Source: an uncultured Caldilineaceae bacterium (GTDB lineage: Bacteria > Chloroflexota > Anaerolineae > Caldilineales > Caldilineaceae). From it: a stretch of DNA of 64,000 bases. Shown one piece after another: positions 1 through 52,082 of this stretch. The position numbers and the translations under genes are program-made. The DNA lies in the NCBI GenBank assembly GCA_951812725.1, contig OX638330.1, positions 4,381,405 to 4,445,404 of the forward strand, given 5' to 3'. The notes under the pieces were generated by a model. That model had not been told where the DNA came from and did not search any database. It saw only the letters and a program-made list of their open reading frames with translations. Within the stretch, counting starts at the first letter, position 1, and the number at the start of each line of letters is the position of its first letter.

Positions 1-138
1 GAATCGCGGCAGAGGGTATTGACCGACCGGCCATGGCGCCTTCCTTTCATTCCCGATCCGTAGCAGGTCTGGCGTGAAACAGAGAGGAGGAAAAAGTGAG
101 ATTTGCCTTTTCTCCCTCCCCGGGTCGGCCCCTGCCGT

Positions 139-897
139 CTAGTCCTGTTTGCGCCCGATGAACAGCCCTTCTTGCAGGTGAAAGAGCGTGCGGCCGTCCT
201 CGCTGCGGGGATGGAGGAACTCTTGCGCCTCGGGCGGGCCGTGCCCGAGGAGAGCCCGCAGGTAGGACTGCATCACTGGACCGTGGCGTGCAGCCCAATC
301 TTCGAAGACCATCTGTTTTTCGAGGATTTCGTGCTGGGTCAGTTCCAGGCCGGCCTGCGAGTAGCCTTCCAGCCACTCTTCGGTGCTGAGGCAGCGGCCG
401 TGGCTGGGGTCGCGCAGTTTCTCGAAGGCGTTGACAAAATCGCCGGCGACGCCCGCTGGTACGACGTTATCCACGACCGCCAGGATGCCGCCGGCGCGCA
501 GCACGCGCACGGACTCGCGCAGGAAAGCGCCGACGTCAGGGAAGTGATGGGGCGCGATGCGGCAGGTGAGGAGATCGAACTGGTCGTCTGCATAGGGCAG
601 GTTGTCGGCATCGGCGTGCTCGACGGTTACGTTGTCGATGCCGCGTATCGCGGTCTGCTCGCGGGCGACGGTCAGCATCTCCGGCGTGATGTCGGTTGCT
701 CGCACGTTGGCGACGTGGGGGGCGAAGGCGAAGGCGGTGTGGCCGGCGGCGGTGGCGATGTCCAGCGCCTGCCAGTGCGGTTGCGGCTCGACCAGCTCGA
801 CCAGCCGTTGTAGACTGGCGCCCTTGGCGTGGGGCCGGCTGGTGATATAGGTCCGGGCATGGGCGCCGAACTGCTCTTGCACTGATCTCTTGTCCAT
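139..897 (-). CDS. Class I SAM-dependent methyltransferase
   Basis: This 252-residue protein has the Rossmann-like methyltransferase fold. Motif I is the ALDIATAAGHTAFAFA stretch near residues 44-59. The acidic residue that would hold the SAM ribose follows in VRATDITPEML, and a later motif reads HADADNLPYADDQFDLL. It resembles the UbiE/Coq5-like Methyltransf_11 group, but the substrate cannot be read from sequence. An AGGA lies three bases before the ATG. It is the last gene of a minus-strand operon behind the phosphatase-family and PH-like genes, with an 18-bp gap. It is probably a cytoplasmic methyltransferase for a small molecule or lipid-like substrate; that role is inference. Confidence 0.85.
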   Translation of the reverse strand: MDKRSVQEQFGAHARTYITSRPHAKGASLQRLVELVEPQPHWQALDIATAAGHTAFAFAPHVANVRATDITPEMLTVAREQTAIRGIDNVTVEHADADNLPYADDQFDLLTCRIAPHHFPDVGAFLRESVRVLRAGGILAVVDNVVPAGVAGDFVNAFEKLRDPSHGRCLSTEEWLEGYSQAGLELTQHEILEKQMVFEDWAARHGPVMQSYLRALLGHGPPEAQEFLHPRSEDGRTLFHLQEGLFIGRKQD

Positions 898-6904: not shown

Positions 6905-9028
6905 TCAGAGCAATCGCCACAGCAGGCCGGCAAACAGGGAACTGAGGAAGATCCCCAGGGCGATGGCAAGCCAGAGCCGCACTGTGATAATGCTCTCAAA
7001 CTGGTTGGTCAACCGCTGCGGCGCATCTGTCAAGCCCAAAAGCCAGACCCGTTGCGGAGATGTCGGGTCGGGCGAATCGCCTATTACGACCTGGACGGTG
7101 CTGTCGGAGACAAGGCGCCGCCAGCGGGACGCTTCGAGCCGATGCTGCGCCGCCCGCAGAGACTGACGGATTTCCAGCGCGGCGGCTTCGGCGCGACTGG
7201 CTGCGGGTGCGGGTGCTTCCGCGGCTGCGGTTGCCTCTCGTTCCAGTGACGCAGCCATACTGTACCATTGGTCCCCAACAGGTCGAAAGTCCACATCGAT
7301 CGACTGGGTGGTACGCTGCCACAGGAGGCGGGTCTCTTGTCGTGTCTCCTGTTCCGCCGCCAGAATGGCACTGCGCAACAGTGCCCAGTCGGGCTGTTGG
7401 GGTGTGTTCTGAGCCAGAAGCCGACGTTTACGGGCGTCGAGTCGATCCAGTTGGATAAGGAACCCGCCGGCCTCCTCGGTAAGTAGTACATCTGTCACTC
7501 CGGAAGCAGACCAACTGTTCAGCAGAGTGTTCAGGGCGCTCTCGCTATCGACGCGTCTCTGAAAGATGGGGTGCGCGATGGCATTGATGGACACGTCATT
7601 ATGGTTCAATGTAACTGTAATCTGCCAATTGGCAAAAAGAGCGCGATACTCCGGTGAGGGCAGAGTCTCGCCAGTAAGGACCTCTTCTCCTACCAGGGAA
7701 ACAGCGGCCTCTTCGTTGCCTTCATTCAATTGTTGCAGCACTTCGTGCAGGATGAGCGCGCGCCGTTCGGCTTCGAGGGTGGCCGGATCGACGACGTCGG
7801 CGGGCAAACGAGCCAGCCGTTCGGTCAGCAGCAGAGCCTTGGGCCAGTTTTCCTGCAAGCGGGCTGTCCGCAGTTGTTGCAGCAGACCTTGGGCAACCCA
7901 GTTCTGCAGTTCGAGGCGGGTCGGCCCTTGCGGCATAGCTGGAAGCGCTCTCTCCGCTTCCGCAACCATGAGCGCGACATAGACGCTATCGACGGAGCCA
8001 TCTGCGGCGATGGCGCGTCTGCGGTAGAGGGCCGCCAGCCGGTAACGCACAGAGGCGTAGACAGCATCCGACCGGGTGTGTTCTTCGGCCAGTCGCAGCG
8101 CTTGTGTGTAGGCGGCCAGGGCTTGTTCATAGAAGCGTTCGCGGGCGGAGGCGCCGAGTGCGGGTGCCTGGTGAAGTTGCGCGTACAGATCGCCCAGATG
8201 CTGTTGAGATTCGACCTGGTTGTTTGCAAGAATTTCGTTTTGGGCAGCGCGAATCTGCTGGATCCACTGTGGATGAAGCGTCTGGAAGAGTACATCTGTG
8301 GTCGGTGGGCGCTCCTCACGCAGCCACTCCAGTTGGTTGGCGCGCACTTTCCAGCCGCGGGGCGATATTTGCAGCCAGCTGTCCGATGGGGCCAGCCATT
8401 GTTCCATGTTGGCGAAATCGATGGTTACGCGCCAGCCACTGATATCGCTGGACCACGCGAGCAACTCGGAAATTGGGTAATGGAAGTCGAAGGTTTGGGT
8501 TACGGCCAGGGGCAGCTCGTAACTGAGGGTGAGGCGGCGGCGGGCATCTGCTTCGAACTCTGCCTGAACGCTCTGGCCCACGTTCTGGCCGGCGGGTTGC
8601 AGAACGAGGGGTTGTCCGTCGAGCGTCACTGCGATATTCCGAGGCAGGGGGCGCTCGCTTGCGGCGGCGCCGGCGGGCTGTGCGACGAGCAGGGTTGCGG
8701 TGATCGCCTCGTCTTCGTCATTATGCAGGCGGTAGGCGGCTTCGATTTGGAGTGTTAGCGAGCGGCCGTCAACGGTGGCGACGCGAACATCGAGCGTGTG
8801 GGTAAGGAGATCCAGCGATGTTTCGAGCGCGGGTTGCAGGAGCAGATGCGAAGCGTCCGCTGACTGTGACTGGGGCAGGCGATAGGGGATGTGGTTTTCG
8901 GAAGGGGGCGCGGCCAACAGGAGATCGGGCCCGCCGAACAGGAAAAGTTGGCAACAGAATATACAGAGAAAAAAGCGACATAGAAAAGTTGCGATCTTAG
9001 AGGACTCTTGATATGATGTCATGCGCAT
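6905..9028 (-). CDS. Secreted, membrane-anchored protein of unknown function
   Basis: This protein of about 707 residues has an N-terminal signal (hydrophobic FLCRFFLCIFCCQLFLFG) and a single C-terminal transmembrane segment (VRLWLAIALGIFLSSLFAGLLW region). The body is therefore extracytoplasmic. The first third is beta-rich. The middle, around EILANNQVESQQHLGDLYAQL and SARERFYEQALAAYTQALRLA, is helical and resembles tetratricopeptide repeats. I do not recognise a catalytic domain. It lies just upstream of the TgpA-like transglutaminase with a gap of about 110 bp to the preferred start, so the two may act together at the cell surface. An in-frame extension to 9139 precedes the ATG at 9028; the signal peptide favours 9028 or 9022. 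Confidence 0.7.
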   Translation of the reverse strand: MRMTSYQESSKIATFLCRFFLCIFCCQLFLFGGPDLLLAAPPSENHIPYRLPQSQSADASHLLLQPALETSLDLLTHTLDVRVATVDGRSLTLQIEAAYRLHNDEDEAITATLLVAQPAGAAASERPLPRNIAVTLDGQPLVLQPAGQNVGQSVQAEFEADARRRLTLSYELPLAVTQTFDFHYPISELLAWSSDISGWRVTIDFANMEQWLAPSDSWLQISPRGWKVRANQLEWLREERPPTTDVLFQTLHPQWIQQIRAAQNEILANNQVESQQHLGDLYAQLHQAPALGASARERFYEQALAAYTQALRLAEEHTRSDAVYASVRYRLAALYRRRAIAADGSVDSVYVALMVAEAERALPAMPQGPTRLELQNWVAQGLLQQLRTARLQENWPKALLLTERLARLPADVVDPATLEAERRALILHEVLQQLNEGNEEAAVSLVGEEVLTGETLPSPEYRALFANWQITVTLNHNDVSINAIAHPIFQRRVDSESALNTLLNSWSASGVTDVLLTEEAGGFLIQLDRLDARKRRLLAQNTPQQPDWALLRSAILAAEQETRQETRLLWQRTTQSIDVDFRPVGDQWYSMAASLEREATAAAEAPAPAASRAEAAALEIRQSLRAAQHRLEASRWRRLVSDSTVQVVIGDSPDPTSPQRVWLLGLTDAPQRLTNQFESIITVRLWLAIALGIFLSSLFAGLLWRLL

Positions 9029-9107
9029 AAATAGATTCACCCCATTGAAAAGAGGGGTGGTTGCAGGTTGCGTTTTGACGCTCCTGCCAGGTGCAGCCAG
9101 AGTACAT

Positions 9108-9410
9108 ATGGTACGTTTGTTGATGCAGTGGGACATCAAAATGGGACACGAACAACCCTATTTTGAGTTTGTCATGCGAGAGTATGCACCAGGACTCATG
9201 CGGTTGGGAATTAACCCTGCCGAAGTCTGGTATACCATTTATGGAAATGGGCCGCAAATGCTAACGATTGGAGAAGTGTCCGATTTGGAGCGGCTGCGGG
9301 CGATTCTGCAGAGCGAAACCTGGCAAAATATGCACCGAAGGCTTCTGAGGCACGTAATAAACTATAGTCAGAGGGTTGTAGACGACAATAGCCGCACATT
9401 TCAGTTGTAG
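9108..9410 (+). CDS. Small conserved protein, possible dimeric alpha-beta barrel
   Basis: This 100-residue soluble protein contains MQWDIKMGHEQPYFEFV, then MREYAPGLMRLGINPAEVWY and the basic segment HRRLLRHVINYSQRVV. From recall of similar Chloroflexota proteins, I believe this is a conserved hypothetical family of the dimeric alpha-beta barrel kind (compare Dabb/NIPSNAP-like folds). The reaction is unknown. An upstream ATG at 9021 would add 29 residues that overlap the divergent gene's start region, so the ATG at 9108 is preferred, although no clear ribosome site is seen. The gene lies divergent from the secreted protein gene and 67 bp before a helix-turn-helix gene. Confidence 0.65.
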   Translation: MVRLLMQWDIKMGHEQPYFEFVMREYAPGLMRLGINPAEVWYTIYGNGPQMLTIGEVSDLERLRAILQSETWQNMHRRLLRHVINYSQRVVDDNSRTFQL

Positions 9411-20351: not shown

Positions 20352-23300
20352 CTATGACCAGGCGGAGCCGGCGTTGCGGTTGTCCTGCTGGTTGTACATC
20401 TCTGCGTGGATGGCATCGGTGAGCAAAATCTGCTGGCGCGAGGCGTTATCCATGCGGCCCAGTTCTGCCAGGTAGCGGGTCATACTTCCCAAATCTTTCA
20501 ATTCAAGACCGTGCACGGTGCGGACAAAGGCAATCTGAAAGGCGTTGCCTGTCAGCAGACGGGGGATGCGTAAACTCTGCATAACGTCCTCTGTCAGGTC
20601 GCTGTCGGGGTCGCCGGAGACTGCGGCGAACTCTACCGGCAGTCCAAAAGCGGCCATCCGGTCCGAAACATCGTAGTTGGCGGAGGGTTTGGCGGCATTC
20701 CACATGTTTTCCAGATAGCGCAGTGTCGCGGCGGACACGGGCGAATACTCTCCTTCGGGATAGAAGGAGGTAAATCCGTCTGGCGAGGAGGCGTCGCGCC
20801 AGAGCAGGCGTTCCAGATTGTACTCCTGCGACAGTGCCTGCATAAAAGCCAAGCGCGCCATTTCGGTTTCGTCATCTGGCATGGATCGACCAGGGTCCGG
20901 TGCGTGATCGGGGAGGTCGGGCTGCCGAGCGGTGGCGGCAGCCTGCGCGCTTTCGCGAACGTAAGAGGAGAGGATATCTGCGAGCGGGCGGGACGACACC
21001 TCTTGGCCGGTGAACAGAGCCGCCAGCCGCTCGAGCCGATGGGGGGCTGTCCAGATGGTGCGCAGGCGTCCTTCACCTGTCGGGTAGGCGCCGGTCGCGG
21101 TGTAGGTAGGGGTGGCGGCGTCACTATTGTCGTCGGCGGTCTGGCGGCCGCGCATAAAGGCCAGGCAGCGTTCCCACATGGCAGGATTGAGATGGGGCCG
21201 GTAGAGATGGGAGGTGATTGCATCCTCGGGCGGGAGGGGCGGCATGTTTTCGCTGACGGACCAGTCCTGCAGTGTTTCGAAGGTCTGTTCGAGAACTTGA
21301 TCCATCTGTTTCAGCATCTGTGCCAGACGATCATGGACGCGGGCCAAGCCCTGCCAGAGGCCGTCTTGCAAGCGGGCGGACAGTTCAGAGCAGGCCAGAT
21401 TGACCCGTTCGCGCCGCAGCTTCTGCACGCGCTGGGCCCTACGGCGGAATGAGGTGGTTGCGCCGAGAAACGCGCCGATCATGAGCCCTATAAAAGTGGC
21501 GGCGTTGGCTTCATTGCCGATGAAACTGACGACTGCGTCCATTGACGCGCCGGTCATCACCTGCATGAGGACGGCGGGATTGGCTTCGCCGTTGACGATT
21601 ACAGCCATATTGCCCACCAATCCGGAACCGAACAGGTAGACCAATGTCAGCAGCACGATGCCGCTGAGCAGACCGAACGCGCGCGTCAGTGAACCGAACA
21701 GGGATGGCTTATCGGCGAGCGTGCGCAAATAGCGGTTGCGCCAGTTGCGCAGTGCCAGCTGACGTTCGACGCGGTTGGCTCCGGCAGTGTGGGGTTGGGC
21801 ACTTTGACTGTCACCAGGTGTGCCAGCCTCTACAGTGTGCTGCAGCCACTGTCTTTCCTGCTCCACTTCAAACAGCCACTGGTGAAGTTGGCGCCGTGCA
21901 TGCATGAGCCCTGACGGTTGGGCGCTGAGCAGGGTGAGCAGGCTGGTGCGCATCTGCTGCGAGATGGTCGGCAGAAAGCGGTTGTCGGTGGGGTTTTGGG
22001 GCAGACCGTCTTCGCGCAGGGCTGTCAGTCCCCAGGCCGTGTCCAGTGCGCCGGCGCCGATATGGTCTTCAAACTGGGCCAGCACGCCCTGGAACTGCTT
22101 GTCGAAGGCTTCCTGCCAGCGGACCGGATTAAGACCTCGCATCTTGCGCGCGGTCGCTGCCGGCAGCACATAGCTCGGGTGAATTGAAAGCTGCTGGAAG
22201 GATTGGGGATTGAGGTCATCGAAGAGGTCGGGCATCTGCTCGATGAGCCGGGTCAACACCTGGTGCGAGGTGGCGCCCAACATTTGCAGCGAGGCCAAAG
22301 GTTCGTTGTTGCCGGCAACGCCCGTGCCGGGCGCGACGTCTGGGCTGCCAGGCTGGAAAAGGACCTGCTCGCGCACGAGGCGTTTGCCCTCATGCTCCTG
22401 GGCGGCCTGGAAGATATAGTCCAGCGGCACATAGTCTGCGGCGGCGCCCAGCAGACTGTATGGACGGTCGCTGGCGTTGCGCAGATCGATACCGACCTGT
22501 TCATCAATGTATGCGGCCCCATCAGCGGAGATGAGCGACTGGAGCGTATTGCCAACGAGGACGGAGAGTTCGTAGCTGTTGCGGGCCAGGGCTTGATTGC
22601 TCTTTTCGCGATCGACCAGGTAGATGCGGTCAAAGAGGGGACGGCCAAGCCACTCTTCCGGCAATGTGCTCTGATTCTTGGTCCCTTTCCAGACGGAAGA
22701 GATGACCTGTTTGAGGTTTGCGCGGCGCAGGCCGGTGAGCGCCTCCATTTCGGCCAAGGCCGCGTAGCAGGAGGCATCCTCCATAATACGGCTGCTGTCG
22801 GTGGCATAGCTGCCGGCGGCGAAGATGCCGACGACTTGGGCGATATGGCGCTGGCCCAGATAGTTGAGTTGGTGCGCAATAGTTGGCCAGATCAACGCCG
22901 ACGTCAAAGGTTCGTAGAGGGGCGCAATCACATACAGGGTGGTCTGTACAAAGGGATCGCCGGGAACATGGGTGTCGGCGCGGATGGGGTCGACGATGTT
23001 GGAGGCGAACAGGTGGGCAATACTGTCGCCGCCCTGTAACGCGGCGCGGAAAGCATGCCGGCGCGTGGGTGGTTCGAACGGGTCCACTGGCGATGCAGGC
23101 GGGATGTCCGGGTTGGCGGGCGTTGCGCCTGCGCCTTTGTTGGATCTGCGGAAAGGCCAGGGCAGTCCTCTGCGACCAGGTTTTTCGGGCGCTTCCCCTG
23201 GAGGATAGGGTGAAGAGGGGGTCGCTTGCCATTGCAGCGGGTGGAGAGAATCAGCGGCCGCCTCCAGCAGAAGGCTGGCGCGCCGCTGGCTCGCGGCCAG

Positions 23301-23654
23301 TCGCCAGTTGTTCGTGGTCTGCGGCGATTCATTGATTTCGGACTGTTGATCAGCGGCCGCTGAGGGTTGAGAGCGCATGAGGCCGTCGAGAAGCCGTTCC
23401 AGATAGAAGGGCGGCAGACGGTTGTCGCGCAGGGTGAACAGATTGAGGGCGAGTTCGTCCTGGTGATTGCGTTGATCGGAGGGCAGGAGGGCTGCAAAGC
23501 GGGTGATGCGGGTCAGATCCGGGCCGTCAACGCCGGTGGCGATGCGCTGTTCCTGGGCGGACTGCAGGCGCGGAGCCAAGTGGAGCATTGTCTGCAAGCC
23601 CCATCCGCCAAAACAAAGTATTGCAGCTCTGCTGCGGGTTGCGCCGGGAATCAT
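20352..23654 (-). CDS. Degenerate tubulin-like protein with membrane segments
   Basis: This 1100-residue protein is not obviously related to a named family, but it aligns by eye with the tubulin-like protein encoded just upstream. AILCFGGWGLQTMLHLAPRL (from about residue 11) matches the partner's VVGVGGMGTNAVRAVKRRL. LYVIAPLYEPLTSALIWP (about 240-257) falls where the partner has its GGTGAG loop, and AQVVGIFAAGSY and SCYAALAEMEAL match the following strands and helix. The glycine loop is gone (PLYEPLTSA, 245-253), so GTP binding is unlikely. Two hydrophobic segments (about 657-678 and 718-735) and a basic coiled coil (about 738-810) follow, then a C-terminal region of unknown fold. It is last in a three-gene cluster with the tubulin-like and vWA genes. 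Function unknown. Confidence 0.7.
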   Translation of the reverse strand: MIPGATRSRAAILCFGGWGLQTMLHLAPRLQSAQEQRIATGVDGPDLTRITRFAALLPSDQRNHQDELALNLFTLRDNRLPPFYLERLLDGLMRSQPSAAADQQSEINESPQTTNNWRLAASQRRASLLLEAAADSLHPLQWQATPSSPYPPGEAPEKPGRRGLPWPFRRSNKGAGATPANPDIPPASPVDPFEPPTRRHAFRAALQGGDSIAHLFASNIVDPIRADTHVPGDPFVQTTLYVIAPLYEPLTSALIWPTIAHQLNYLGQRHIAQVVGIFAAGSYATDSSRIMEDASCYAALAEMEALTGLRRANLKQVISSVWKGTKNQSTLPEEWLGRPLFDRIYLVDREKSNQALARNSYELSVLVGNTLQSLISADGAAYIDEQVGIDLRNASDRPYSLLGAAADYVPLDYIFQAAQEHEGKRLVREQVLFQPGSPDVAPGTGVAGNNEPLASLQMLGATSHQVLTRLIEQMPDLFDDLNPQSFQQLSIHPSYVLPAATARKMRGLNPVRWQEAFDKQFQGVLAQFEDHIGAGALDTAWGLTALREDGLPQNPTDNRFLPTISQQMRTSLLTLLSAQPSGLMHARRQLHQWLFEVEQERQWLQHTVEAGTPGDSQSAQPHTAGANRVERQLALRNWRNRYLRTLADKPSLFGSLTRAFGLLSGIVLLTLVYLFGSGLVGNMAVIVNGEANPAVLMQVMTGASMDAVVSFIGNEANAATFIGLMIGAFLGATTSFRRRAQRVQKLRRERVNLACSELSARLQDGLWQGLARVHDRLAQMLKQMDQVLEQTFETLQDWSVSENMPPLPPEDAITSHLYRPHLNPAMWERCLAFMRGRQTADDNSDAATPTYTATGAYPTGEGRLRTIWTAPHRLERLAALFTGQEVSSRPLADILSSYVRESAQAAATARQPDLPDHAPDPGRSMPDDETEMARLAFMQALSQEYNLERLLWRDASSPDGFTSFYPEGEYSPVSAATLRYLENMWNAAKPSANYDVSDRMAAFGLPVEFAAVSGDPDSDLTEDVMQSLRIPRLLTGNAFQIAFVRTVHGLELKDLGSMTRYLAELGRMDNASRQQILLTDAIHAEMYNQQDNRNAGSAWS

Positions 23655-23873
23655 TGGGAGTTTCTAGTTTTCAGTTTCTAGTTTTTAGTTGTCAAGTCGG
23701 GACAGGCGCCCAAAAATCCATGTTATCAGAGAGCTAGTCAGGGCCGCAAACAGCTTTACGAACTCTTTACATTTCTTGAGCAGTTGTTTCTACATCCGAA
23801 AAGAACAGGTATTGCAAATCTCTTGAGAATATAAGCAGAGATTCCCACTCTGTAGAGGCAAGCACCATTTCCT

Positions 23874-23889
23874 ACGTCCCTTCGGACGT
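23874..23889 (-). terminator. Hairpin after the tubulin-like gene
   Basis: A perfect 6-bp stem (ACGTCC/GGACGT) with a 4-base loop lies 19 bases beyond the tubulin-like stop codon. No run of T follows, so it may only weakly attenuate transcription. The rest of the 253-bp gap has short TTTCTAGTTTT-like repeats near 23660-23690. Confidence 0.25.
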
Positions 23890-23907
23890 GCAGCTGACAA
23901 CGGAAAC

Positions 23908-26382
23908 CTAAATTCCTTCTTCGGTGATTTCGGGCAGGTCGACCCATGCGGGATGGAGATGAAACTCTTCGCGGGCGGGGAAGTCACGCTTGTTTTCATA
24001 CTGTGCACGAAATTCGTCGAGGCGGTCGATCAGCGTCACCGGCAGGCCGTGGACGATCCAGACAGCGTCCATGCGTCCGGTGTCGCCGGTGGGCACCCAT
24101 TTGATGTCCTCCTGGCCTACCATGGCCATGGCCAATTGGGGATCGTCAATGCGGGAGGATGGCGTGGCCGCGAGACGGATATGCTCCAGATTGGCGTCGT
24201 GGAAGCTGAAGCGGTCCGAATCCCAGCGGATGTAGGGGTTCAGGCGATCGAGCCACTGCTGGACGCGGTTGTTGGGTAGAGGCCGGGACTGCTGGGTCTC
24301 TTCGCCATGCTGGACCCCGATAATGTGGCGGATGTCGACGCACTGCAAAACCCTGCCCAACAGCCCTCTTTCGGTGGCGATTGCATTGGTGAGGTTGGCG
24401 AACAACTCCTCGCCGCTGACTGCCTGGTTGTAGTTCAGGATGCGGTCGATAATGGGCCCGAGCAGGCTTTCCCAGTCGCTGGGATAGACGACCTGGGCTG
24501 CGTTGCGATAGAAGTGCTGCAGATAGTCTCGGCCGACTGCGCCGGTCTCCAGTTCATAGTATGTATTGGTGCTGGCGGTACCGTCGGGGATGCGGGGGTC
24601 GATGCGTTCGGCGGACCGCCTGGCGGCATGATTGGCTCGACCCAGTGCGCCGCCTGCATTGTCTATCTGGGCACGAAAAACTTCGCGCAGCTGTGTGCCG
24701 TAGGCGAAGAGACGCTCGACGAGGATTCGCTCCAGAATGTCGCGGCGCTGGTTGAGGCGGGCGCGGGCCTTGCGTTGCCGCATGTCGCGGGCGCGGTCGC
24801 GGGCCTGGCGGGGGTTGAAGGCCGCCAGCATCAGGTCGCCCAAGCCGCCGGCAATCTGGCCTAACTGTTCTGCTGCGCCGCCCTGTTGGGCCAGCAAGGA
24901 GCGCCAGCGGGTGCGATCCTCGTCCATTACCGGATGATTGTTCAACAGAAAGAGTCTCTGTTTGATCAGCGATTCCATCGGTGCGGTGGAGGGATTGGGC
25001 GGCGCCAACAGGTCGGTCAGCGTGAGCGCGCCGCGCAGTCCCGTCTCCAGGATTACCTGGCGGAAGGTGTTGTCGACCGCGGTCTTGAAGCCGAGCCAGG
25101 CGCCGCGCTGTTCCTCGACCTCTTCGGCCAGTTCCTCCAGCCGGTCGTTGTCCAGAGAGAGGTAGCGGGAACGCATCCTGGCCAGGAGCCCCTGCCAGGC
25201 GGTGACAGCCTTTTGGCGGGCCTGAGGCGAGACCGGTTGGCGCGGGTCGTTGAGCTCGGGCCCGGCGGCAAACCGCCTCATGCAGTCGGCCAGAAATGCC
25301 TGCTGCCAGAAGTTGACCAGCGACTCATCGGGCGCCACGATGGCGGAGGCGGCAAAACTGCTGTAGACGAGGTAGTTGCCCTTGGGGGGCTTTCCTGTGC
25401 TGCGTTCGTTCACCACTTCGGCAGCGGCCACGCCACCGGACATGCGTTCGCGTACGACGTTCACCTCGAGCCCGAGGATTTCGCTGCTCAGATGGCTGAT
25501 GGCGGTAAGTTGGATCAGATGCGCGGCCAGGTTTTCGGCGTCGGCTTTGCGAGCCAGGCTGCGGCCGTCGCGGTTGGTGCGCCCGACCAGAAAGATAAAG
25601 TCGAAAGGTGCGTAGGGTGTGTCGGGCAGCGCCCGCTGTTCGCTGGGGTAGAGTTCCTGGAACTGCTGCGTTTCCTGGAAGTAGTTCAGCTCTTTGAGAG
25701 CGGCGTAGGCGTTGGCTTTGATGCGCCTGCGCTGCAGATCGCTGTTGATTTCCTCTTCGAGCACGTCAGGCAGGAAGAAGATGCCGACGACGCGGGCATT
25801 GCTGCGCACGAGCGCGCGCACGCGGTGCGCCACATCCATAAACATGCCGGCGCCGGTGCCGCCGCAGAGGCTGCTGACGATATAGACGAGCTGATAGTTG
25901 CTCATCACGGGAAAGCGGCGATTTTGCGCCATTTCCAGATCGCGGATTTTGTCCAGGGCCGCGTACTTCGTCTCCAACAGCCTTTTGAAGTTGACGTAGT
26001 TGCGGAAGAAGGATAGGCGTCCGATAGGCCGCAGTTGTTTGGCGCCGTTGTGGATGTAGCCCAGCGGGATCGAAGGGTAGTTCCACCAGCGGGCGATTTC
26101 GGGATGGTTTTCGAGGTTATCCACGAGGCGGGTGGCGTCGAACTTACCCATGTAGGCCGATTCATCGGCGTAGAGCGGCTCCTGATCGAGCCGGTTGATA
26201 AGCGGTTCGGTGTCCAGGGCCAGCAGTTGAATCATCGCGGGCAGAGATTCGCCGCCCCACGCTTTGCGCAGGCGTCGTTTGACGGCGCGCACAGCGTTTG
26301 TGCCCATACCGCCTACGCCGACCACGAGGGTCGGATAAATTGTTGGCTTTTCACTAAGAAACGGTGCCCCGTTCTGATCCAT
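23908..26382 (-). CDS. Tubulin-like GTPase-domain protein
   Basis: This 824-residue protein has the tubulin/FtsZ nucleotide fold at its N-terminus. It has a Rossmann-like start YPTLVVGVGGMGTNAVRAVK (about residues 16-35) and the phosphate-binding loop SLCGGTGAGMFMD, with GGTGAG at 174-179, equivalent to the GGGTG(S/T)G loop. VVGIFFLPDVLEEEIN and FDFIFLVGRTNRDGRSLARK follow. The family appears to be Pfam Tubulin_2, whose role is poorly known. The C-terminal 450 residues are helical and Arg-rich, with no membrane segment. AGGAAG precedes the ATG. It sits between a vWA membrane protein gene and a degenerate paralogue; such pairing suggests a membrane-linked GTP-controlled polymer or scaffold, which is inference. 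Confidence 0.85.
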   Translation of the reverse strand: MDQNGAPFLSEKPTIYPTLVVGVGGMGTNAVRAVKRRLRKAWGGESLPAMIQLLALDTEPLINRLDQEPLYADESAYMGKFDATRLVDNLENHPEIARWWNYPSIPLGYIHNGAKQLRPIGRLSFFRNYVNFKRLLETKYAALDKIRDLEMAQNRRFPVMSNYQLVYIVSSLCGGTGAGMFMDVAHRVRALVRSNARVVGIFFLPDVLEEEINSDLQRRRIKANAYAALKELNYFQETQQFQELYPSEQRALPDTPYAPFDFIFLVGRTNRDGRSLARKADAENLAAHLIQLTAISHLSSEILGLEVNVVRERMSGGVAAAEVVNERSTGKPPKGNYLVYSSFAASAIVAPDESLVNFWQQAFLADCMRRFAAGPELNDPRQPVSPQARQKAVTAWQGLLARMRSRYLSLDNDRLEELAEEVEEQRGAWLGFKTAVDNTFRQVILETGLRGALTLTDLLAPPNPSTAPMESLIKQRLFLLNNHPVMDEDRTRWRSLLAQQGGAAEQLGQIAGGLGDLMLAAFNPRQARDRARDMRQRKARARLNQRRDILERILVERLFAYGTQLREVFRAQIDNAGGALGRANHAARRSAERIDPRIPDGTASTNTYYELETGAVGRDYLQHFYRNAAQVVYPSDWESLLGPIIDRILNYNQAVSGEELFANLTNAIATERGLLGRVLQCVDIRHIIGVQHGEETQQSRPLPNNRVQQWLDRLNPYIRWDSDRFSFHDANLEHIRLAATPSSRIDDPQLAMAMVGQEDIKWVPTGDTGRMDAVWIVHGLPVTLIDRLDEFRAQYENKRDFPAREEFHLHPAWVDLPEITEEGI

Positions 26383-26542
26383 TTATGGCTTCCTTCTGAA
26401 GTTATCAGTAATAAAGTCGTGGTTTCGATCTGCTGCGCTCGTTTATGCACATGGCCACTTTGTCAGCTAACGGCCAGCTGGCCGCATCTCCGGAGTGGCA
26501 GTGTGCCCAGGCTGCAGTGCACTGAATACCGAAAACCAAGAA

Positions 26543-29500
26543 TTAAAAGCTATCGCGCGGGCTGCCCCAAGGGTCGTCCGATCCCGCGCCGGCGGGTGCG
26601 TTGTTCTGATCGTCGCCAAATGCTCCGTCGGATGGAGACGGCGATGACCAGCCCCAGTTGTCATCGGACGATTCTGTCCGGCCGAAATCACCGGAACCTG
26701 GAGCGGCAGAGGGGTTTGCCCCCCAGCCTCCCTGGTCCCAACCTGAGTCCCAGGCGGACTCTTGTGTTCCCGCATTGGCATCTTGCCAGCCGTCCGAACT
26801 GCTGGAGCCGGCAAAGCGCTCAGGCGGGGTGTCAGCAATGTTTTCAAAAGCAGGCGAATGGCCTGGCGAACCCGCCGGATGTACCGATCCTGCGACGGAC
26901 GGCGGGTACGACGCGTGCGCTGGGCCCCCGGCCACATTCGACGAGCCAAATGCGGAATCCGGCGCGTTCGAATGGTACCAACTGTCGGATCTTCCGGAAG
27001 CGGCAGCGTACCCAGGCGTCAGCGGGGAGTCCTGCCCAGGCAGGGTCACTGTCGGATCTTCGTCATCATCCATATTGTACCCGCGACTGCGAGCACGCGC
27101 CACCACGATGAGCAAGGCCAACAGCATCATCGGTCCACTGCAGAATACCAGCGGGAAGGTGTAGAAGGGACGCAGCCACCACTCGACGTAGCGTTGATAG
27201 AGGGTTGGGCTGCGGAAGCTGATATCGACCGAGCGTGTTTCATTGGCGAGGCCGGCGATGCTCAACAGCAGTTCTCCACTGTAGAAGGAGCCGCGCAAGA
27301 CATCTTTTGGCAGGTCTTTGCGGGCAATGAGGGTGATGGGGACCTCATAAAATCCTTCGTCATCGGGGGAGTCGGTGACCTCCACCGGCAGGGCTTCGAG
27401 GTAGAGTTCATCCAGAGCCATGACGCCGTTGCCGGTTTCGCCCGATGCGGCGATACCGACTGTTTCGACCACAAAAGGCGTCTTGCCGTTGAAGCGGAGG
27501 TATAGCGTTTGTGTTGTTTTTTCGCCGGCTCGCCCCAGATTGCCGAAATCGAGCGCGCCGGCGACACTCCACTCGACGTCGCGAATCTGCAGACGGAAAG
27601 GCACGATCGCGGATCCGGCCGGACCGGCGCCGGACGACGGATTCGCGGAAATGACATCGAATTCCTGGCTTGGCCCAGCCAGATTGAGGAGGCCGTGGCA
27701 GCTGCCGGCGGACATGGGCCCTTCGCTCAGCAGGCGTACCGGCAGCGCCCAATTTGCAGGCTGTAAATTGTCTGTAGCGGTGGAGCTGGCAGCGCTGACA
27801 TTTGCCGCTTCGAAGGGTTGCAGATCAGCGGCGGTGGCGGAGAGGCCGCTGCAGCTGCTTTCGGTCAGTTCAACCGTCAGCCGAAAGGGAGTGTCGCCGC
27901 TAAAGGCGACGGGCAGCAGGATCTGCTCGTCCAGCCGGAAATTCGGAGACGTATCGAAAAGCAGTGCGCCGAAGTCGGCTTCCTGCACCTGGATGTGCGC
28001 CTGGGAGCGGGGAATGTCCAGGATTACGGGCAGCGAGGGGGCGGGACGAACCTGGACCTCCATTGGCAAGCCGGCGGGACTGAAAGCAGACAGGTTCAAC
28101 TGGCCTTCGTATGCGCCGGAGCGTAACAGATCGAGCCCGTCGACATGGAGGAGCGCCGTCTGGATTCCATTTTCGAGCACTTCTACAGAAAGGCTCACTG
28201 AAGCCTCGCGCACGATTTCGCTTGTATCGGAGCGGCGCAGGATGAGCGAGGCTTCCAGAGTTCCGATCTCTTCGACGGTGGTTGCCTGGACGGTCAGCGG
28301 CCATCCTGCGGGAGGCATTTTCGCCAGATCGATATCGGCCGGCAGGCCCCGCACGTAGATCGCCGGCTCCACTTCCAGGACCGTGCGCGCATAATCGCCG
28401 AAACGGACGCCATCGGTGGCGGCAGTCAACAGGAAGAGCGCCTCGTAGTCGCGTCCGTCCTGCGGCATAAAGCCGTCGTCGGAGCAGTACTGATCACCGC
28501 AGTTGATTTGCTGCCGGTAGACAATCTGGCCGCCGGTGAGATCGGTGACGTAGACGACGGCTTGCATGTCCTGCACCTGAACACCGGGGCCGAAACCCAC
28601 CTTGAGTTGGAGGCTGCCGTCTTGCAGGATTCCGGGACTGTTGGCGGAGGGAGAGAAGACCTGCGCCTTGGGCAGATCCTCCGAGGCTTGAAGGCGGAAG
28701 GTGCGCAGCAGTTGCAACGGCTCTCTATCCTCTCCCAATTGAATCGTCACCTCTTCGGCGCCGCGGTCAAGCTGTTGGGCAGCGACCGTTCGGCCGCTGA
28801 CGGGGTCTTGTCCGAGGATGGGGATCGGTATGTTGCCATTGAGCATCAGCGGTTCGTTGGCGGCGGGGCCGGCGCCGGCAACGATGACGATGGGCGCTTT
28901 GCCGGCAGGATAGTAGCGCGTTGCCGCCGCGTTGCCCTGTACGCTGGGAGGGGGAAAGAGCAGTTCGGGATAGCTGTCCGCCTGAACGACGGCAAAACTG
29001 CTCAGATCGGTCGTTTTGGCCACCCATTCGCCAGCCGCCAGCGGGGCGACAGCGACGTTGAGGTCGATATTGCCGTCGGCTATCAGACTCTGTGTCGACA
29101 TCGGCGCGCCGTCCCGCTCCACTGCCGTGATCGCCGACTGCGGGCTGACGAAGGCGATGCTGCCGGCGCTATGCGCGTTGCGGATCGAGATGGTCAGGTC
29201 GCCGTGCAGGTTGCGGTGGGTGACGATCGAGCGGTCGGACTTCATTTCGGCGAAAATTTCGCCGAAGATAAGCAGGAGATCCTGCGAACTCTTGGCTTCC
29301 CGCGCCAGAGGCGAACTGGTTTTGAGAAAATCGCCCGCGCAGCCGGCATCGGGATTGCAGAGGATCACCGGGTAGAGCAGTGCGCCGGCGTCCTCGATCC
29401 GGGCCAGCAGGTTGGTGATGGTCTGACGCTGGCCGGTAACCTGTAACGGGGCGGTCGGCTCGCCGTCTGTCAGCAGCAGCACGTACTGGCTGCGGTCGAG

Positions 29501-29998
29501 GTCGCCGTGTGCCTCGAACAGCCGCAGCGCCTCCTGCAGCCCCAGATCCATGCGTGTGAAGCCGCGCAGCGCATAGTCGTCCGGGGCCTGGAGCGATGCA
29601 GCCATCCGGCGGCGGTTCTCGGCGCTGCCGATCTCCTGTAACAGGCTCATGGCGCCGACGCCCTCGGCTGTACTGTCGAAACGCAGAACGGCGATGCGGT
29701 CGGCGCTGTCGGCCAGATGGACCAACAGGCGGGCCGCGCTATAGCGCAGCTCGTTGGGGTCGCTGGGCGCGTTGAAGCTGAAGCCTTCGCAGGGGGGGTC
29801 GGAGGGGGGTTGGCCTTGCGGCCAGGGCCAACAGGTGGCCATGCTGCCGGAGTCATCGAGAATGACGATTACGTCGATGGGAGCTGCAACTGTCGCGGAC
29901 TGACTTGGAGGCGCGGACAGGGTCTCGGCATGTGCCGGCGCGGCGGGACTGCCCGTTATCAACAGGAGGAGAAACCCGCATAGCAGACAGGCAGACAT
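26543..29998 (-). CDS. Extracellular vWA-domain membrane protein with cytoplasmic tail
   Basis: This 1151-residue protein has a signal peptide (LLCGFLLLLITGSPAAPAHA) and a vWA domain with a complete MIDAS: D48-x-S50-x-S52 in VILDDSGSM, Thr148 in GFTRMDLGLQ and Asp178 in LLTDGEPT. A long beta-rich extracellular region with several cysteine pairs follows, then one membrane segment (about 947-970) and a tail of about 180 residues rich in Ser, Gly, Asp, Pro and Trp (for example WDSGWDQGGWG). MIDAS vWA domains bind ligands through a metal ion. The tail looks disordered and could contact the tubulin-like partners encoded downstream, 160 bp away. It is first in the cluster. No strong ribosome site is seen. 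Confidence 0.85.
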   Translation of the reverse strand: MSACLLCGFLLLLITGSPAAPAHAETLSAPPSQSATVAAPIDVIVILDDSGSMATCWPWPQGQPPSDPPCEGFSFNAPSDPNELRYSAARLLVHLADSADRIAVLRFDSTAEGVGAMSLLQEIGSAENRRRMAASLQAPDDYALRGFTRMDLGLQEALRLFEAHGDLDRSQYVLLLTDGEPTAPLQVTGQRQTITNLLARIEDAGALLYPVILCNPDAGCAGDFLKTSSPLAREAKSSQDLLLIFGEIFAEMKSDRSIVTHRNLHGDLTISIRNAHSAGSIAFVSPQSAITAVERDGAPMSTQSLIADGNIDLNVAVAPLAAGEWVAKTTDLSSFAVVQADSYPELLFPPPSVQGNAAATRYYPAGKAPIVIVAGAGPAANEPLMLNGNIPIPILGQDPVSGRTVAAQQLDRGAEEVTIQLGEDREPLQLLRTFRLQASEDLPKAQVFSPSANSPGILQDGSLQLKVGFGPGVQVQDMQAVVYVTDLTGGQIVYRQQINCGDQYCSDDGFMPQDGRDYEALFLLTAATDGVRFGDYARTVLEVEPAIYVRGLPADIDLAKMPPAGWPLTVQATTVEEIGTLEASLILRRSDTSEIVREASVSLSVEVLENGIQTALLHVDGLDLLRSGAYEGQLNLSAFSPAGLPMEVQVRPAPSLPVILDIPRSQAHIQVQEADFGALLFDTSPNFRLDEQILLPVAFSGDTPFRLTVELTESSCSGLSATAADLQPFEAANVSAASSTATDNLQPANWALPVRLLSEGPMSAGSCHGLLNLAGPSQEFDVISANPSSGAGPAGSAIVPFRLQIRDVEWSVAGALDFGNLGRAGEKTTQTLYLRFNGKTPFVVETVGIAASGETGNGVMALDELYLEALPVEVTDSPDDEGFYEVPITLIARKDLPKDVLRGSFYSGELLLSIAGLANETRSVDISFRSPTLYQRYVEWWLRPFYTFPLVFCSGPMMLLALLIVVARARSRGYNMDDDEDPTVTLPGQDSPLTPGYAAASGRSDSWYHSNAPDSAFGSSNVAGGPAHASYPPSVAGSVHPAGSPGHSPAFENIADTPPERFAGSSSSDGWQDANAGTQESAWDSGWDQGGWGANPSAAPGSGDFGRTESSDDNWGWSSPSPSDGAFGDDQNNAPAGAGSDDPWGSPRDSF

Positions 29999-30687: not shown

Positions 30688-32148
30688 CTAATTGTCTGCG
30701 CCCGCGGCTGAAGCCTCGGCGAGCATCTCTGCGAGCGCGGCGACAAACTGGTCGGCGGGCAAGGCGCCGGGGATCAGCCGCCCTTCGCCGCCGTAAAGGA
30801 CGACGAACGTGGGTGTGCCGCGAACAAAGGGCGCGCCGTCCTGCATATCACTCTGGACGGCCTGTGGGGACTGGTCGCCGGACATGCAGGTTGCGAATGT
30901 ATCCGTATCCAACTCGTATTCAGCTGCCAACTCCATGAAATAGCTGCTGTTATCCGGGCGGGACCAGAGTTCCATATCGACGAACAGGCGATGGTGGAAC
31001 TGCCAAAACGCCTCCTGCTCGGCCGCGCACTCGGCTGCGACCGAGGCGGCAAAGGCAAAGGGGTGGATATTCTGGATGGGGAAGTGCTTGAAAACCCACC
31101 TCACCTCACCCTTCTCGATAAACTCCTGGTCCAGTACCGGTTGTGTTGTCAAGGTGTGGCGGCTGCAGTAGGGGCATTGGAAGTCGCTGAATTCAACGAT
31201 GACGATCGGGGCATCGCTACTGCCCTTATAGATATCGCCTGCCAAAGTATAGCCGGGGCGGTCCGGATCGGGCGTCAGGCCCTCTGCTGTCGCCCAGAAT
31301 GGCAGCTGTCCATCGCCCTGCTGCTGCTGTGGCTGGGCCTGGGCTTGCGCCGCGCCTTGCGGCGTGCCGCCGGATGCGATCGTGTCGATCCAGCCGGCGA
31401 AGGTATCGTATGGCTGCGCGCCGGTGAGGGAGAAGGACTCGCCGGTCTCTTCGCGGACGAAGCGGAAGCTGGGCGTGCCGGTGTAACCAAAGGACTGGGC
31501 TTCGGCCAAGCTATCGTTCACTTTTGCCAGCTGGGTGGCGCTATTGGCCATGCAGGATCCGTATTGGGTGGTGTCGGCGCCCAAATCCTGGACCAGTCCG
31601 GCAAAGAAGGACAAAGCCTCTTCAAGAGGCGCCCACTCCTTCTGGGTGCGGAAGAGTTGATCGTGCATCTGCCAGAAGAGGACGATATCCTGCTCGGCTA
31701 CACAGTTGGCGGCGATGGCCGCGGCAATAGCATTGGCGTGTATAGAGGAGAGGGGCATATCGCGGAAGACGAATTTCACCGAGCCGGTTTCACCGAACCC
31801 GGCGAGGAGGGCCGGTTCGGTCTGGATCACATGGCGGGCGCAGAAGGGGCATTCGTAGTCGCTGTATTCGTAGATGGTGATGGCGGCATCAGGGTCGCCG
31901 CGGTAGGGATATCCCTCCGCGGTGAAGCCGACGGGAACGCCTCTGTGCATAGCAGGTTCTGTGCCGCTGTCAGGGGCAGGAGCGACGGCCGGGGCGACTA
32001 TATTGCCATCGGCATCGGTCGTGCATCCGGCGGCAAGCAGAAGAACGACGGCGAGGAGCGCGAAGAGGCCAAGGCGCAGGCTGCTCCTTTTGTTCGCGTT
32101 GTCGCTCTCTTTCTTTGTGCGGCGCATACGTCTGGCTTGCAAATGCAT
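30688..32148 (-). CDS. Lipoprotein with two DsbA-like thioredoxin domains
   Basis: This 486-residue protein has a lipoprotein signal (LFALLAVVLLLAAGC). It carries two thioredoxin-fold domains of the DsbA/DsbG type, each with its own active site: EYSDYECPFCARHVIQ in the first half and EFSDFQCPYCSRHTLT in the second. Both have the CPxC dithiol and the following H-x-x-x-x-P helix pattern. It should work outside the membrane as a thiol oxidase or disulfide isomerase. A Gln/Ala-rich linker joins the domains. AAGGAGG before the ATG decides the start. It lies upstream of the vWA gene on the same strand; the vWA ectodomain has several cysteine pairs and could be a client, which is inference. Confidence 0.88.
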   Translation of the reverse strand: MHLQARRMRRTKKESDNANKRSSLRLGLFALLAVVLLLAAGCTTDADGNIVAPAVAPAPDSGTEPAMHRGVPVGFTAEGYPYRGDPDAAITIYEYSDYECPFCARHVIQTEPALLAGFGETGSVKFVFRDMPLSSIHANAIAAAIAANCVAEQDIVLFWQMHDQLFRTQKEWAPLEEALSFFAGLVQDLGADTTQYGSCMANSATQLAKVNDSLAEAQSFGYTGTPSFRFVREETGESFSLTGAQPYDTFAGWIDTIASGGTPQGAAQAQAQPQQQQGDGQLPFWATAEGLTPDPDRPGYTLAGDIYKGSSDAPIVIVEFSDFQCPYCSRHTLTTQPVLDQEFIEKGEVRWVFKHFPIQNIHPFAFAASVAAECAAEQEAFWQFHHRLFVDMELWSRPDNSSYFMELAAEYELDTDTFATCMSGDQSPQAVQSDMQDGAPFVRGTPTFVVLYGGEGRLIPGALPADQFVAALAEMLAEASAAGADN

Positions 32149-43098: not shown

Positions 43099-45450
43099 GT
43101 GAAGATCAAGCGCTTTACACCCATTCTTTTGCTCCTATTGCTGGCGGCCCTGGCGCCTGGAAGGGCAGTTGCCCAGCAGGGCTCGACTGCAGACAGTGCG
43201 ACCAGCGGCTGTGATTCTGCCAACACGATTACGCCGGGTGTTTCTGTAACCGGCGACCTCTCCGATGCGCTGGCCGCCCATGCGGACATTGCTGAAGTCA
43301 GCACATCGATTTCAGGGGGGAAGATACTGACTGCCGTCTTCCACCTGAGAGACGTTCCCGAGACCCTGACATTCAACAGGTCGGGCTCGGCGTCTGGCTC
43401 GATCGAGTACAGTTGGGAGGTGTGGGTGGACGTGGACGCCGACCCGGGAACCGGTTTTATGGGAGGTTTTGAATACCTCCTGTCGGCCTATCATACTGTG
43501 TCCGAGGAAGACAGTGGGGCCGAGTTGAAGGCAAGCACCTGGTCGCTGGGCATTGACGGACCGAAACCCGTTCTGAATGCCAAAGTCGAACTGTCTGCCG
43601 AAGCGGACACGATCACGATTACGGGGGGCGTACCAAGGCTCAAACCTGAAGTGAGGCTTGCATTCAAGAGCACTGATGCGCTGGGTGGTTCCGATCAGGT
43701 GGGATGCTTTCCTGCTTTTGGCGAGCGTGTGACACTCGGCGGCTGCGAATCCGGCCCGAGTGCCATCCTGCCCGGCCAAACCGCGGTAGACGAAATCTCC
43801 CATTCGTTACCGCCGCACATCGACATAACTGAAGTCGATACTCATTTGCGCGATGATACTCTGACCGTTGTATTCCATCTGCGGGACCTGCCGGACAGGC
43901 TCACTTTCAATCGAACCGGCGTGGCGGAAGGGCAGATGGAATATATATGGCAGGTATCGGTCGACGTGGACGGTGACAAAGAGACCGGCATTGGGGGGGC
44001 CGACTTTGCGCTTATGGCCTTTCACTTCGCGCCATCATCGGAAGTTGGAACCAATAGCACACAGTCGATCGAGAATGGGACGGAAGCCGCGGGCTGGGTA
44101 CTGTCAACAGATGGCGACGTCAGAGGTCTGTTTTTGGGCAGCGCCACTCTGAAAGCGTCTGCCGAAGCCAACACAGTTACTCTCAGCGGGGCCGTTCATG
44201 GAATCACGCCAGAATCGCGACTTACATTCGGGGTCTACGACTATTTGTATGGGTCCGATACAGTTGGATGTCTCGCGTCGGCTTTCTGGGAAGATACGTC
44301 CAATATGTGCGGTTCCGTTGAACCCTTTAACCCGGGTGATTCCGCGACGGACGACACTTTGGATGTGCTGGAACGGAGTTTTGCCGATTCCGACGAGTCT
44401 GTAGAGGCCGACAACGCCCACATTGACATCACCAGTATCAACACATCATTGTCGGGCGAGAAGCTGACAGTGGTATTCCATCTGCGAGACCTACCGGAGA
44501 CCCTGACTCTCAACAGAACGGATACTCAAAAGAGCTTCATAGAGTACAGGTGGGAGGTGAATATCGATGTTGACAATGACCGGAATACCGGCTTTGGCGG
44601 AGGCTACGAGTACCTGCTGTCGGCATATCATATTGCTTTCCTGTTAGAAAGCAGGGAAAACCATGTAGCCCCAGTCTCATCCGGACTTGCGTCCGACGTT
44701 TGGAGAATTGGCCCCAGAATGTTTGCTGCTTCCGTGGAATCATCAAGCTATGTTGCCTCGGCCGAAGCTGACACAGTTACCCTGATTGGAACCATACCTG
44801 GAATCACTGCGGAATCTCGACTCGTATTCGTTGCAGGCGACGCGTTGAGAGGCCAAGACGAACTGGAATGCCACCCTCCCATGAATGTGATGCTGTTTCC
44901 TGGCCCTTGCGGCGCGGACGAGGCCATGATCAAGCCGCTCCAGACCATAGCCGACGAAGTATCTGACGAACTGCCGGGCCACGCTGACATTATCGGCGTA
45001 AGCACGGCTCTGTCCGGTGAAACACTTGCTGTCATCTTCCAGTTGCGGGACGTGCCGGAAGAGCTCGTGTTCGACAGAGAAGGCGTAGGCGAAAGAGTGT
45101 ACGAGTATGGTTGGAAAGTGTCGATTGACGTAGACCACGGTGAGGAGAGCGGCCAATTGGGGTTGGACTACGAGATGTCCGCCATCCATACTGTCCTTCC
45201 AGAGAACAGAGACAGCAGTACCAGTGCGGCCATTGGTAGCAAAGTGGAAGTCAACACCTCGAGAAGAATTGAAGACAGTTTCAGAAGGATGGGGGAAGCG
45301 ACCATAGTCGTTTCTCCCTATGCCGATACAATCACGCTGATTGGGGACATCCCCGGCATAACGCCCGACTCGAGGCTCATTTTCGATGTATATGACTTAG
45401 GGAACGGTAGCGAATATCTCGGATGCCAAGAGTTGTCTTCGTCGGAATGA
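43099..45450 (+). CDS. Secreted protein with four Cys-bounded repeats
   Basis: This 783-residue protein has a signal peptide (ILLLLLLAALAPGRAVA). Four similar domains of about 165-190 residues follow, near residues 39-201, 215-390, 403-590 and 603-775, each starting and ending at a cysteine. Every domain contains AHIDI-like strands, LTVVFHLRDLPETLTFNR, an IEYxWEVxVDVD segment with D-x-D-x-D-x-x-T-G (calcium-loop-like), and a YLLSAYH or ALMAFHF strand. I do not recognise the domain. It is probably extracellular and beta-rich. The start is GTG after GGGAG. No membrane anchor or enzyme motif is seen. It stands alone between copy D and the AddAB genes. Confidence 0.8.
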   Translation: MKIKRFTPILLLLLLAALAPGRAVAQQGSTADSATSGCDSANTITPGVSVTGDLSDALAAHADIAEVSTSISGGKILTAVFHLRDVPETLTFNRSGSASGSIEYSWEVWVDVDADPGTGFMGGFEYLLSAYHTVSEEDSGAELKASTWSLGIDGPKPVLNAKVELSAEADTITITGGVPRLKPEVRLAFKSTDALGGSDQVGCFPAFGERVTLGGCESGPSAILPGQTAVDEISHSLPPHIDITEVDTHLRDDTLTVVFHLRDLPDRLTFNRTGVAEGQMEYIWQVSVDVDGDKETGIGGADFALMAFHFAPSSEVGTNSTQSIENGTEAAGWVLSTDGDVRGLFLGSATLKASAEANTVTLSGAVHGITPESRLTFGVYDYLYGSDTVGCLASAFWEDTSNMCGSVEPFNPGDSATDDTLDVLERSFADSDESVEADNAHIDITSINTSLSGEKLTVVFHLRDLPETLTLNRTDTQKSFIEYRWEVNIDVDNDRNTGFGGGYEYLLSAYHIAFLLESRENHVAPVSSGLASDVWRIGPRMFAASVESSSYVASAEADTVTLIGTIPGITAESRLVFVAGDALRGQDELECHPPMNVMLFPGPCGADEAMIKPLQTIADEVSDELPGHADIIGVSTALSGETLAVIFQLRDVPEELVFDREGVGERVYEYGWKVSIDVDHGEESGQLGLDYEMSAIHTVLPENRDSSTSAAIGSKVEVNTSRRIEDSFRRMGEATIVVSPYADTITLIGDIPGITPDSRLIFDVYDLGNGSEYLGCQELSSSE

Positions 45451-51731: not shown

Positions 51732-52082
51732 GTATCGTGTCTCCGATGGGGGCGTTGGGCACGCGGTCGATCTGCTATCTTCCTGAGTATACGTCAGGAT
51801 CTGCAGGGGCCGCACATAATCGTGGAGTGAGGAGGGAAGGGCGCTTCGATCAGGCGGCGGGTAGAATTGCGCTGTTGGCGGATCCTGCTTCCATGCAGAA
51901 TGCAACGTAAGTTGCCACATCTTCAGTTCTGGCAGTGGAACTCTGGGAGGCATTATGGTGGTGGGGATTCGGTGGAGCCAACGCCTGCGCGGACCCACAG
52001 TCTTCATTGAGAGGCTGAAACTGGCGCTCAGGGAGGGGCTTACAGGTCGTTGCGCCAGTCTCCTGCGCCAATTGTCCGGTGA
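51732..52082. other. Intergenic stretch with no supported gene
   Basis: This 351-bp stretch lies between the addB-like gene and the antitoxin-like gene, both on the minus strand. The open frames on either strand lack ribosome sites and recognisable motifs. A toxin partner for the antitoxin-like gene might be expected here but is not seen. Confidence 0.5.

Follow-up and report, generated by a model that had tools for sequence, protein, structure and literature searches.

What might a surface-exposed vWA protein have to do with two tubulin-like proteins encoded beside it? This question is raised by the genome of an uncultured Caldilineaceae bacterium (GenBank assembly GCA_951812725.1), a single contig (OX638330.1) of 5.95 Mb. 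The named genomes nearest to it are metagenome-assembled genomes of the Caldilineaceae (Chloroflexota). We analyzed its positions 4,381,405–4,445,404, a stretch of 64,000 nucleotides hereafter called the window. Three co-directional genes on the minus strand lie in the order V (1151 amino acids), T (824) and Z (1100), with gaps of 160 bp between V and T and 253 bp between T and Z (Table 1). An initial annotation had described them as a vWA protein with an extracellular metal ion-dependent adhesion site (MIDAS) and one membrane span, a tubulin-like protein with a GGTGAG loop, and a second tubulin-like protein with two membrane segments. The open reading frames (ORFs), both motifs and the membrane segments were confirmed. 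With about even confidence, we read the trio as a vWA–tubulin module of the FtsZl1 type that includes a membrane-anchored pseudo-FtsZl1, with tethered or templated assembly coupled to a surface receptor.

Co-occurrence and order of V, T and Z

Rare co-occurrence, which the initial annotation had taken as a ground for doubt, is not what we see. Among 41 related genomes, orthologs of T, V and Z were found in an identical set of 22, and the others lacked all three. The 22 comprise all 17 members of the genus and five further genera of the family. Because the genes are present together and missing together, their association is more than chance. The order V–T–Z is kept in every complete locus of the genus. 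It also recurs in other Chloroflexota, namely Roseilinea/Thermoflexales (loci L081, L150 and L152), L082 and the families behind L094, L096, L098 and L099. Within the genus, identity to the window's proteins is mostly ∼94% for T, ∼81% for V and ∼78% for Z, so that the GTP-site protein T is the most constrained of the three. Tubulin_2 is present in 46 of 400 Chloroflexota genomes. Promoter and terminator scans gave chance-level results only, and hence operon status rests on gene order. No NCBIfam name was found for V, T or Z. The genome's canonical cell-division FtsZ is ruled out as the identity of T or Z, since the PF00091 match over the cut-off lies outside the window (G000:C1:4799912).

T and its degenerate paralog

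T matches Tubulin_2 (PF13809) with E = 5.7e-60. A PDB sequence search with T gave nothing significant, leaving the fold search as the informative one. A structure model built from a 29-sequence alignment reached a predicted local distance difference test score (pLDDT) of 80.8 and a predicted template modeling score of 0.73, and its top Foldseek match was CetZ2 (E = 4.9e-6). VIA-align placed the model on CetZ 3zid_A with Z = 24.0 over 301 residues (model 15..803, chain 1..346), and on tubulins with an aligned span of 15..822. Since about 300 of 360 CetZ residues align across the span of the model, both tubulin domains appear to be present in T, with a helical insert (about residues 375–700) inside the second. 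CetZ, FtsZ and tubulin are thus the closest solved folds to the T model, at about 14% identity. T differs from them by this insert of about 330 residues, which sits between conserved parts of the second domain; model helices cover residues 386–697, including a single helix at 524–594. The tubulin fold suspected by the initial annotation is therefore predicted for both domains, and a non-tubulin N-terminus, its other ground for doubt, was not found. The two-domain prediction is useful because the C-terminal tubulin elements of FtsZl1, T6-H7 included, had escaped recognition by sequence according to Makarova and Koonin, who defined this family in 2010 (PMC2875224; here and below, its main text).

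Profile homology indicates that Z is a divergent, degenerate paralog of T. The Pfam match of Z to Tubulin_2 is weak (E = 0.0037, second half of the profile). Comparison of profiles by hhalign gave E = 3.5e-7 for Caldilineaceae Z versus T and E = 2.7e-16 for Z of other families versus T. For L081, Z matches its own T by BLAST (E = 4e-17, 489 columns) and also matches Tubulin_2 (E = 1e-16). As a control for specificity, we ran the T profile over 156 ORFs, each at least 350 amino acids long, taken from 28 loci. Values of E < 0.01 were limited to T and to neighboring or fused Z-type proteins, bar one marginal match (E = 0.002); the T matches arise partly by construction, because many T sequences are in the profile, and the Z matches do not. 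The helical middle of Z gave no match to that of T.

At the T4 position, Z of the window reads VIAPLYEPLTSALIWP, aligned to VSSLCGGTGAGMFMDV of T, and its T1 region is kept (ILCFGGWGLQ). GGTG was intact in none of the Z sequences examined, and T1 was mostly kept. The loss of the T4 signature makes it probable that Z does not bind guanosine triphosphate (GTP) in the usual way. Candidate membrane segments begin at residues 662 (hydropathy 2.19) and 718 (1.58), with R-rich sequence on both cytoplasmic flanks and a K/R-free loop between them. For the second tubulin-like protein in the initial annotation, the homology to T and the two candidate spans stand, with the correction that the GTP signature is absent; two equivalent GTP-controlled tubulins are not supported.

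We also considered Z as one ancient clade. A tree of the N-terminal domain rejected a single clade of Z sequences (AU, approximately unbiased test, p = 0.0095), a result limited by the great length of the branches and by an alignment that was trimmed and highly divergent. For these reasons, the tree only hints at repeated origin of Z, and we treat this as a lead.

The vWA receptor, its tail and its fusions to tubulin-like domains

V starts with a signal-peptide-like N-terminus and carries a complete MIDAS (DDSGS at 48, GFTRMD at 146, LTDGE at 176). Its Pfam vWA match is weak (E = 0.0016, under the curated cut-off), and a PDB sequence search with V gave nothing significant. One strong membrane segment at residue 948 is followed by a low-complexity tail of 184 residues. 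Across homologs, tail length varies from about 85 to 185 residues and the sequence is otherwise poorly conserved. Even so, 30 of 33 distinct tails contain a tryptophan cluster, compared with a mean of 6 and a maximum of 12 after shuffling, and DPW or DAW close to the end is likewise seen in 30 of 33 (after shuffling, a mean of 0.6 and a maximum of 4); these shuffle controls serve as a guide only, because the tails are related by descent. An FHA domain takes the place of this tail in Roseilinea L081 and Thermoflexales L150 (E = 1.5e-7 and 2e-9, respectively). The L081 cluster encodes a PP2C phosphatase, a serine/threonine (Ser/Thr) kinase, an FHA protein, V with the FHA tail, T and Z. V tails thus look like docking sites for cytoplasmic partners.

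Elsewhere, extracellular vWA and tubulin-like domains are joined in one chain. L089, from another family of the class, encodes a 1569-residue protein with vWA at 111–269, a span at 654 and a tubulin-like domain from 739 on, in which T4 is replaced by DDAGSG; a protein kinase gene adjoins it. The 3513-residue protein of L092 combines Tubulin_2 (15–390, GGTGSA), vWA (1690–1859), spans, a PD40 propeller and a second Tubulin_2 with GGMSG. In L189, L190 and L191, from three further genera, proteins of 2116–2263 residues have the architecture CAP-vWA-TM-TM-PD40-TM-Tubulin_2 (TM, transmembrane segment), with T4 of the membrane-bound Tubulin_2 reading GGFGSA, GGFGSG or GGMSG. These three fusion genes come after a separate MIDAS vWA gene and a T gene with GGTGAG. 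Recurrence in several genomes makes assembly error unlikely. In every fusion chain, the membrane-bound tubulin copy is the degenerate one, and the predicted topology consistently has a vWA outside the cell and, within the same molecule, a tubulin-like domain in the cytoplasm. Judged by their motifs, Chloroflexota repeatedly pair a GTP-site T with a T4-degenerate, usually membrane-tethered paralog of T.

A degenerate twin may exist beyond this phylum. In two loci outside Chloroflexota, L160 (7031–9133) and the Fimbriimonadales (Armatimonadota) locus L161 (12777–14852), the gene after FtsZl1 begins with a T1-like motif, and the L160 protein matches the T profile with E = 6e-6. A Deinococcus radiophilus plasmid (L196, 8995–11505) encodes a Tubulin_2-like protein with no readable GGTG loop, near a chemoreceptor-like gene and an OmpA family gene. 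On plasmids of Thermus oshimai (L195, 7422–15381) and Meiothermus taiwanensis (L197, 2199–15395), a vWA–FtsZl1 pair is followed by a gene for a 677–679-residue protein, directly before brxL; in L197, an Hma-type ATPase gene lies upstream of the pair. The protein after T on these plasmids was rejected as a Z, having neither a membrane segment nor detectable homology to T. In another Chloroflexota genome (L086, 8968–17479), a vWA–FtsZl1 pair has a reverse transcriptase gene and cas1 within a few kb.

Upstream of V lies a co-directional gene for a double-DsbA protein, D, which the initial annotation did not mention. Of the family loci whose sequence extends far enough upstream, 28 of 31 have it in this place. 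The V ectodomain has eight cysteines (56, 70, 214, 220, 500, 505, 716 and 767), which makes it plausible that D is an accessory in V folding.

Table 1. Genes and features of the V–T–Z locus (window coordinates)
Feature	Position	Strand	Remark
Z, 1100-residue putative membrane-embedded degenerate FtsZl1 paralog	20352..23654	-	
T1-like loop kept in Z, RAAILCFGGWGLQTMLHLAPR, about residues 9–29	23568..23630	-	
T4-equivalent stretch of Z, VIAPLYEPLTSALIWP, GTP signature lost	22884..22931	-	
Candidate membrane hairpin of Z, residues 662–680 and 718–736	21447..21671	-	
C-terminal segment of Z (about residues 1030–1063), homologous to the T C-terminal domain	20466..20567	-	local hhalign E = 1.9e-5
T, 824-residue FtsZl1/Tubulin_2 protein; T1 and T4 intact; predicted full tubulin fold with helical insert	23908..26382	-	
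T4 GTP-binding loop GGTGAG of T, residues 174–179	25846..25863	-	
C-terminal (activation-like) tubulin domain predicted for T, about residues 706–822	23917..24267	-	structure match spans model 15..803/822
V, 1151-residue vWA protein; signal peptide, MIDAS vWA, large ectodomain, one span, cytoplasmic tail	26543..29998	-	
MIDAS DDSGSM of V, residues 48–53; T and D elements of the site at 146 and 176	29840..29857	-	
Single membrane span of V, residues 948–966	27101..27157	-	
Cytoplasmic tail of V with conserved tryptophan clusters (W..W..W; DPW near end)	26546..27100	-	
D, double thioredoxin/DsbA lipoprotein-like protein	30688..32148	-	co-directional, syntenic upstream neighbor of V

Possible mechanism, known relatives and alternatives

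Relatives of the trio have been described, contrary to the initial annotation, which knew of no such system (PMC2875224, PMC7159879). Makarova and Koonin found a vWA gene in most FtsZl1 operons, its MIDAS mostly intact, listed Chloroflexus aggregans among the members, and proposed a role in membrane remodeling (PMC2875224). T fits this description, with its Tubulin_2 N-terminal domain, GGTGAG loop of the GGGTG(S/T)G type, long helical/coiled-coil middle region, mostly helical C-terminal part, and adjoining vWA gene with intact MIDAS. An adjacent P-loop GTPase, protein kinase or OmpA protein is frequent but not universal in such operons (PMC2875224); none was recognized among the ORFs flanking the trio. 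According to the 2010 main text, an operon has a single FtsZ-like protein along with membrane proteins that are lineage-specific, and neither a degenerate membrane-anchored second FtsZl1 nor vWA–FtsZl1 fusions are mentioned there; the supplement, outside this comparison, may list the Z gene unrecognized. The pairing of vWA with tubulin is thus already known as a prediction of 2010, and the trio is a variant of a predicted, uncharacterized system. Relative to the literature compared, including that main text, two features look new: an FtsZl1 partner that is degenerate and usually anchored in the membrane, and the joining of this partner to an extracellular vWA in a single chain. A methanogen operon with vWA proteins and a tubulin-like protein is reported to be induced by mechanical motion in transcriptome data (PMC12008871).

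In the mechanism that we propose, V would act as a surface receptor, holding its MIDAS vWA ectodomain outside and, beyond one span, showing the tryptophan motifs of its tail inside. T would be the cytoplasmic, GTP-binding subunit. Z, an old paralog that lost the T4 signature and gained a membrane hairpin, may act as a fixed, non-cycling partner that tethers T at the membrane and probably templates or caps it. When V is engaged outside, the signal would reach the T–Z assembly inside, and the altered assembly state would change local membrane shape or adhesion. We infer contact of T with Z and of the tail with T or Z, as well as polymerization, the direction of signaling and the cellular role. 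The relay from outside to inside, suggested by the initial annotation, gains support from the naturally occurring chains in which a tubulin-like domain and an extracellular vWA are fused. Integrin-type adhesion offers an analogy only: it too has an extracellular MIDAS domain, one span and a linear-motif tail facing a cytoskeletal protein, but homology is limited to the vWA fold, and the partner here is tubulin-like rather than actin-linked.

Several points weigh against this proposal. The literature consulted yielded no experimental study of FtsZl1 function, and no experiment showing polymerization of any FtsZl1 protein. T6-H7 of FtsZl1 could not be identified by sequence (PMC2875224). The AlphaFold model of Z, from an alignment of 19 mostly close homologs, has a pLDDT of 48, with the N-terminal half below 50 and no confident tubulin fold; because it is poor, it was not used for fold claims, and the fold assignment of Z rests on profile homology. 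The tree behind the repeated origin of Z has very long branches. Finally, V and T occur with no neighboring Z-like gene in other phyla and some Chloroflexota, so Z is not universal.

Other explanations share some of this evidence. T and Z could form a discrete GTP-switched signaling complex rather than a filament, with V sensing a ligand, T cycling GTP, Z anchoring, and output through phosphorylation or partner release. The phosphatase, Ser/Thr kinase, FHA protein and FHA-tailed V of the L081 operon, together with the kinase beside the L089 fusion, speak for such an arrangement, and the large helical insert of the T model could block lateral contacts. Yet characterized proteins of the tubulin superfamily all polymerize (PMC2875224), the T model keeps both tubulin domains, and no kinase adjoins the trio in the window; we regard this explanation as rather unlikely. 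If the trio were instead an envelope transport or surface-structure assembly device, Z would be the membrane core, T would power or gate it, and V would be an outer receptor or cargo clamp. Transport was suggested for FtsZl1 by the reviewer Jekely (PMC2875224), small multi-span proteins come after Z in some families, and the double-DsbA gene is syntenic with the trio. But the hairpin of Z gives too few spans for a channel by itself, and transporter families gave no match to Z, making this improbable.

A role in phage defense or conflict, with infection triggering superstructure formation by the tubulin-like protein, seems very improbable. It is suggested by the work of Kaur et al. (2020) on GAP1-N2/DO-GTPase conflict systems (PMC7159879), whose Firmicutes clusters carry a pair of genes for tubulin-domain proteins together with a membrane-bound, extracellular vWA protein, a gene content resembling that of the window. 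It also draws on the V–T pairs beside brxL on Thermus and Meiothermus plasmids, the latter near an Hma-type defense gene. However, searches of the whole genome found neither GAP1-N2 (PF20013) nor DO-GTPase2 (PF19993), which define those systems, and a Corynebacterium glutamicum control was positive for both; the trio is thus not that conflict system. PADLOC gave no match to V, T or Z, and the trio is syntenic in 17 of 17 genus members, beside housekeeping genes, rather than patchy.

Apart from the trio, the window's minus strand encodes an AddAB-like pair at 45616–52007, a UvrD-type helicase with a PD-(D/E)XK domain and then a second PD-(D/E)XK protein. As the longest ORFs of the two share about 500 bases, the 1169-residue frame probably starts further in. 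A 1261-residue protein at 60145–63927 (minus strand), with many leucine-rich repeats and Fn3-like matches, is probably a surface protein. Two proteins gave no Pfam match at E 1e-5: one of 744 residues (6908–9139, minus), which adjoins a TgpA/transglutaminase protein, and one of 783 residues (43099–45447, plus).

The anatomy described here bears on an objection raised by a reviewer of the FtsZl1 proposal, that vWA partners outside the cytoplasm and an FtsZ-like protein within it could not function together (PMC2875224). The fusions and the membrane-embedded degenerate paralog answer this objection and suggest a way in which exterior and interior are linked across the membrane. As a tentative generalization, and one that we think doubtful as yet, FtsZl1 systems may follow a two-subunit rule: a GTP-cycling soluble tubulin and a GTP-dead, membrane-embedded paralog of more than one origin would form a tubulin-like filament integral to the membrane and connected with adhesion domains outside the cell. 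If true, this would be a bacterial counterpart of integrin–cytoskeleton coupling, made from tubulin. If T and Z co-assemble, an integral membrane protein would be one of the subunits of a tubulin-family filament, an arrangement that to our knowledge has no other example.

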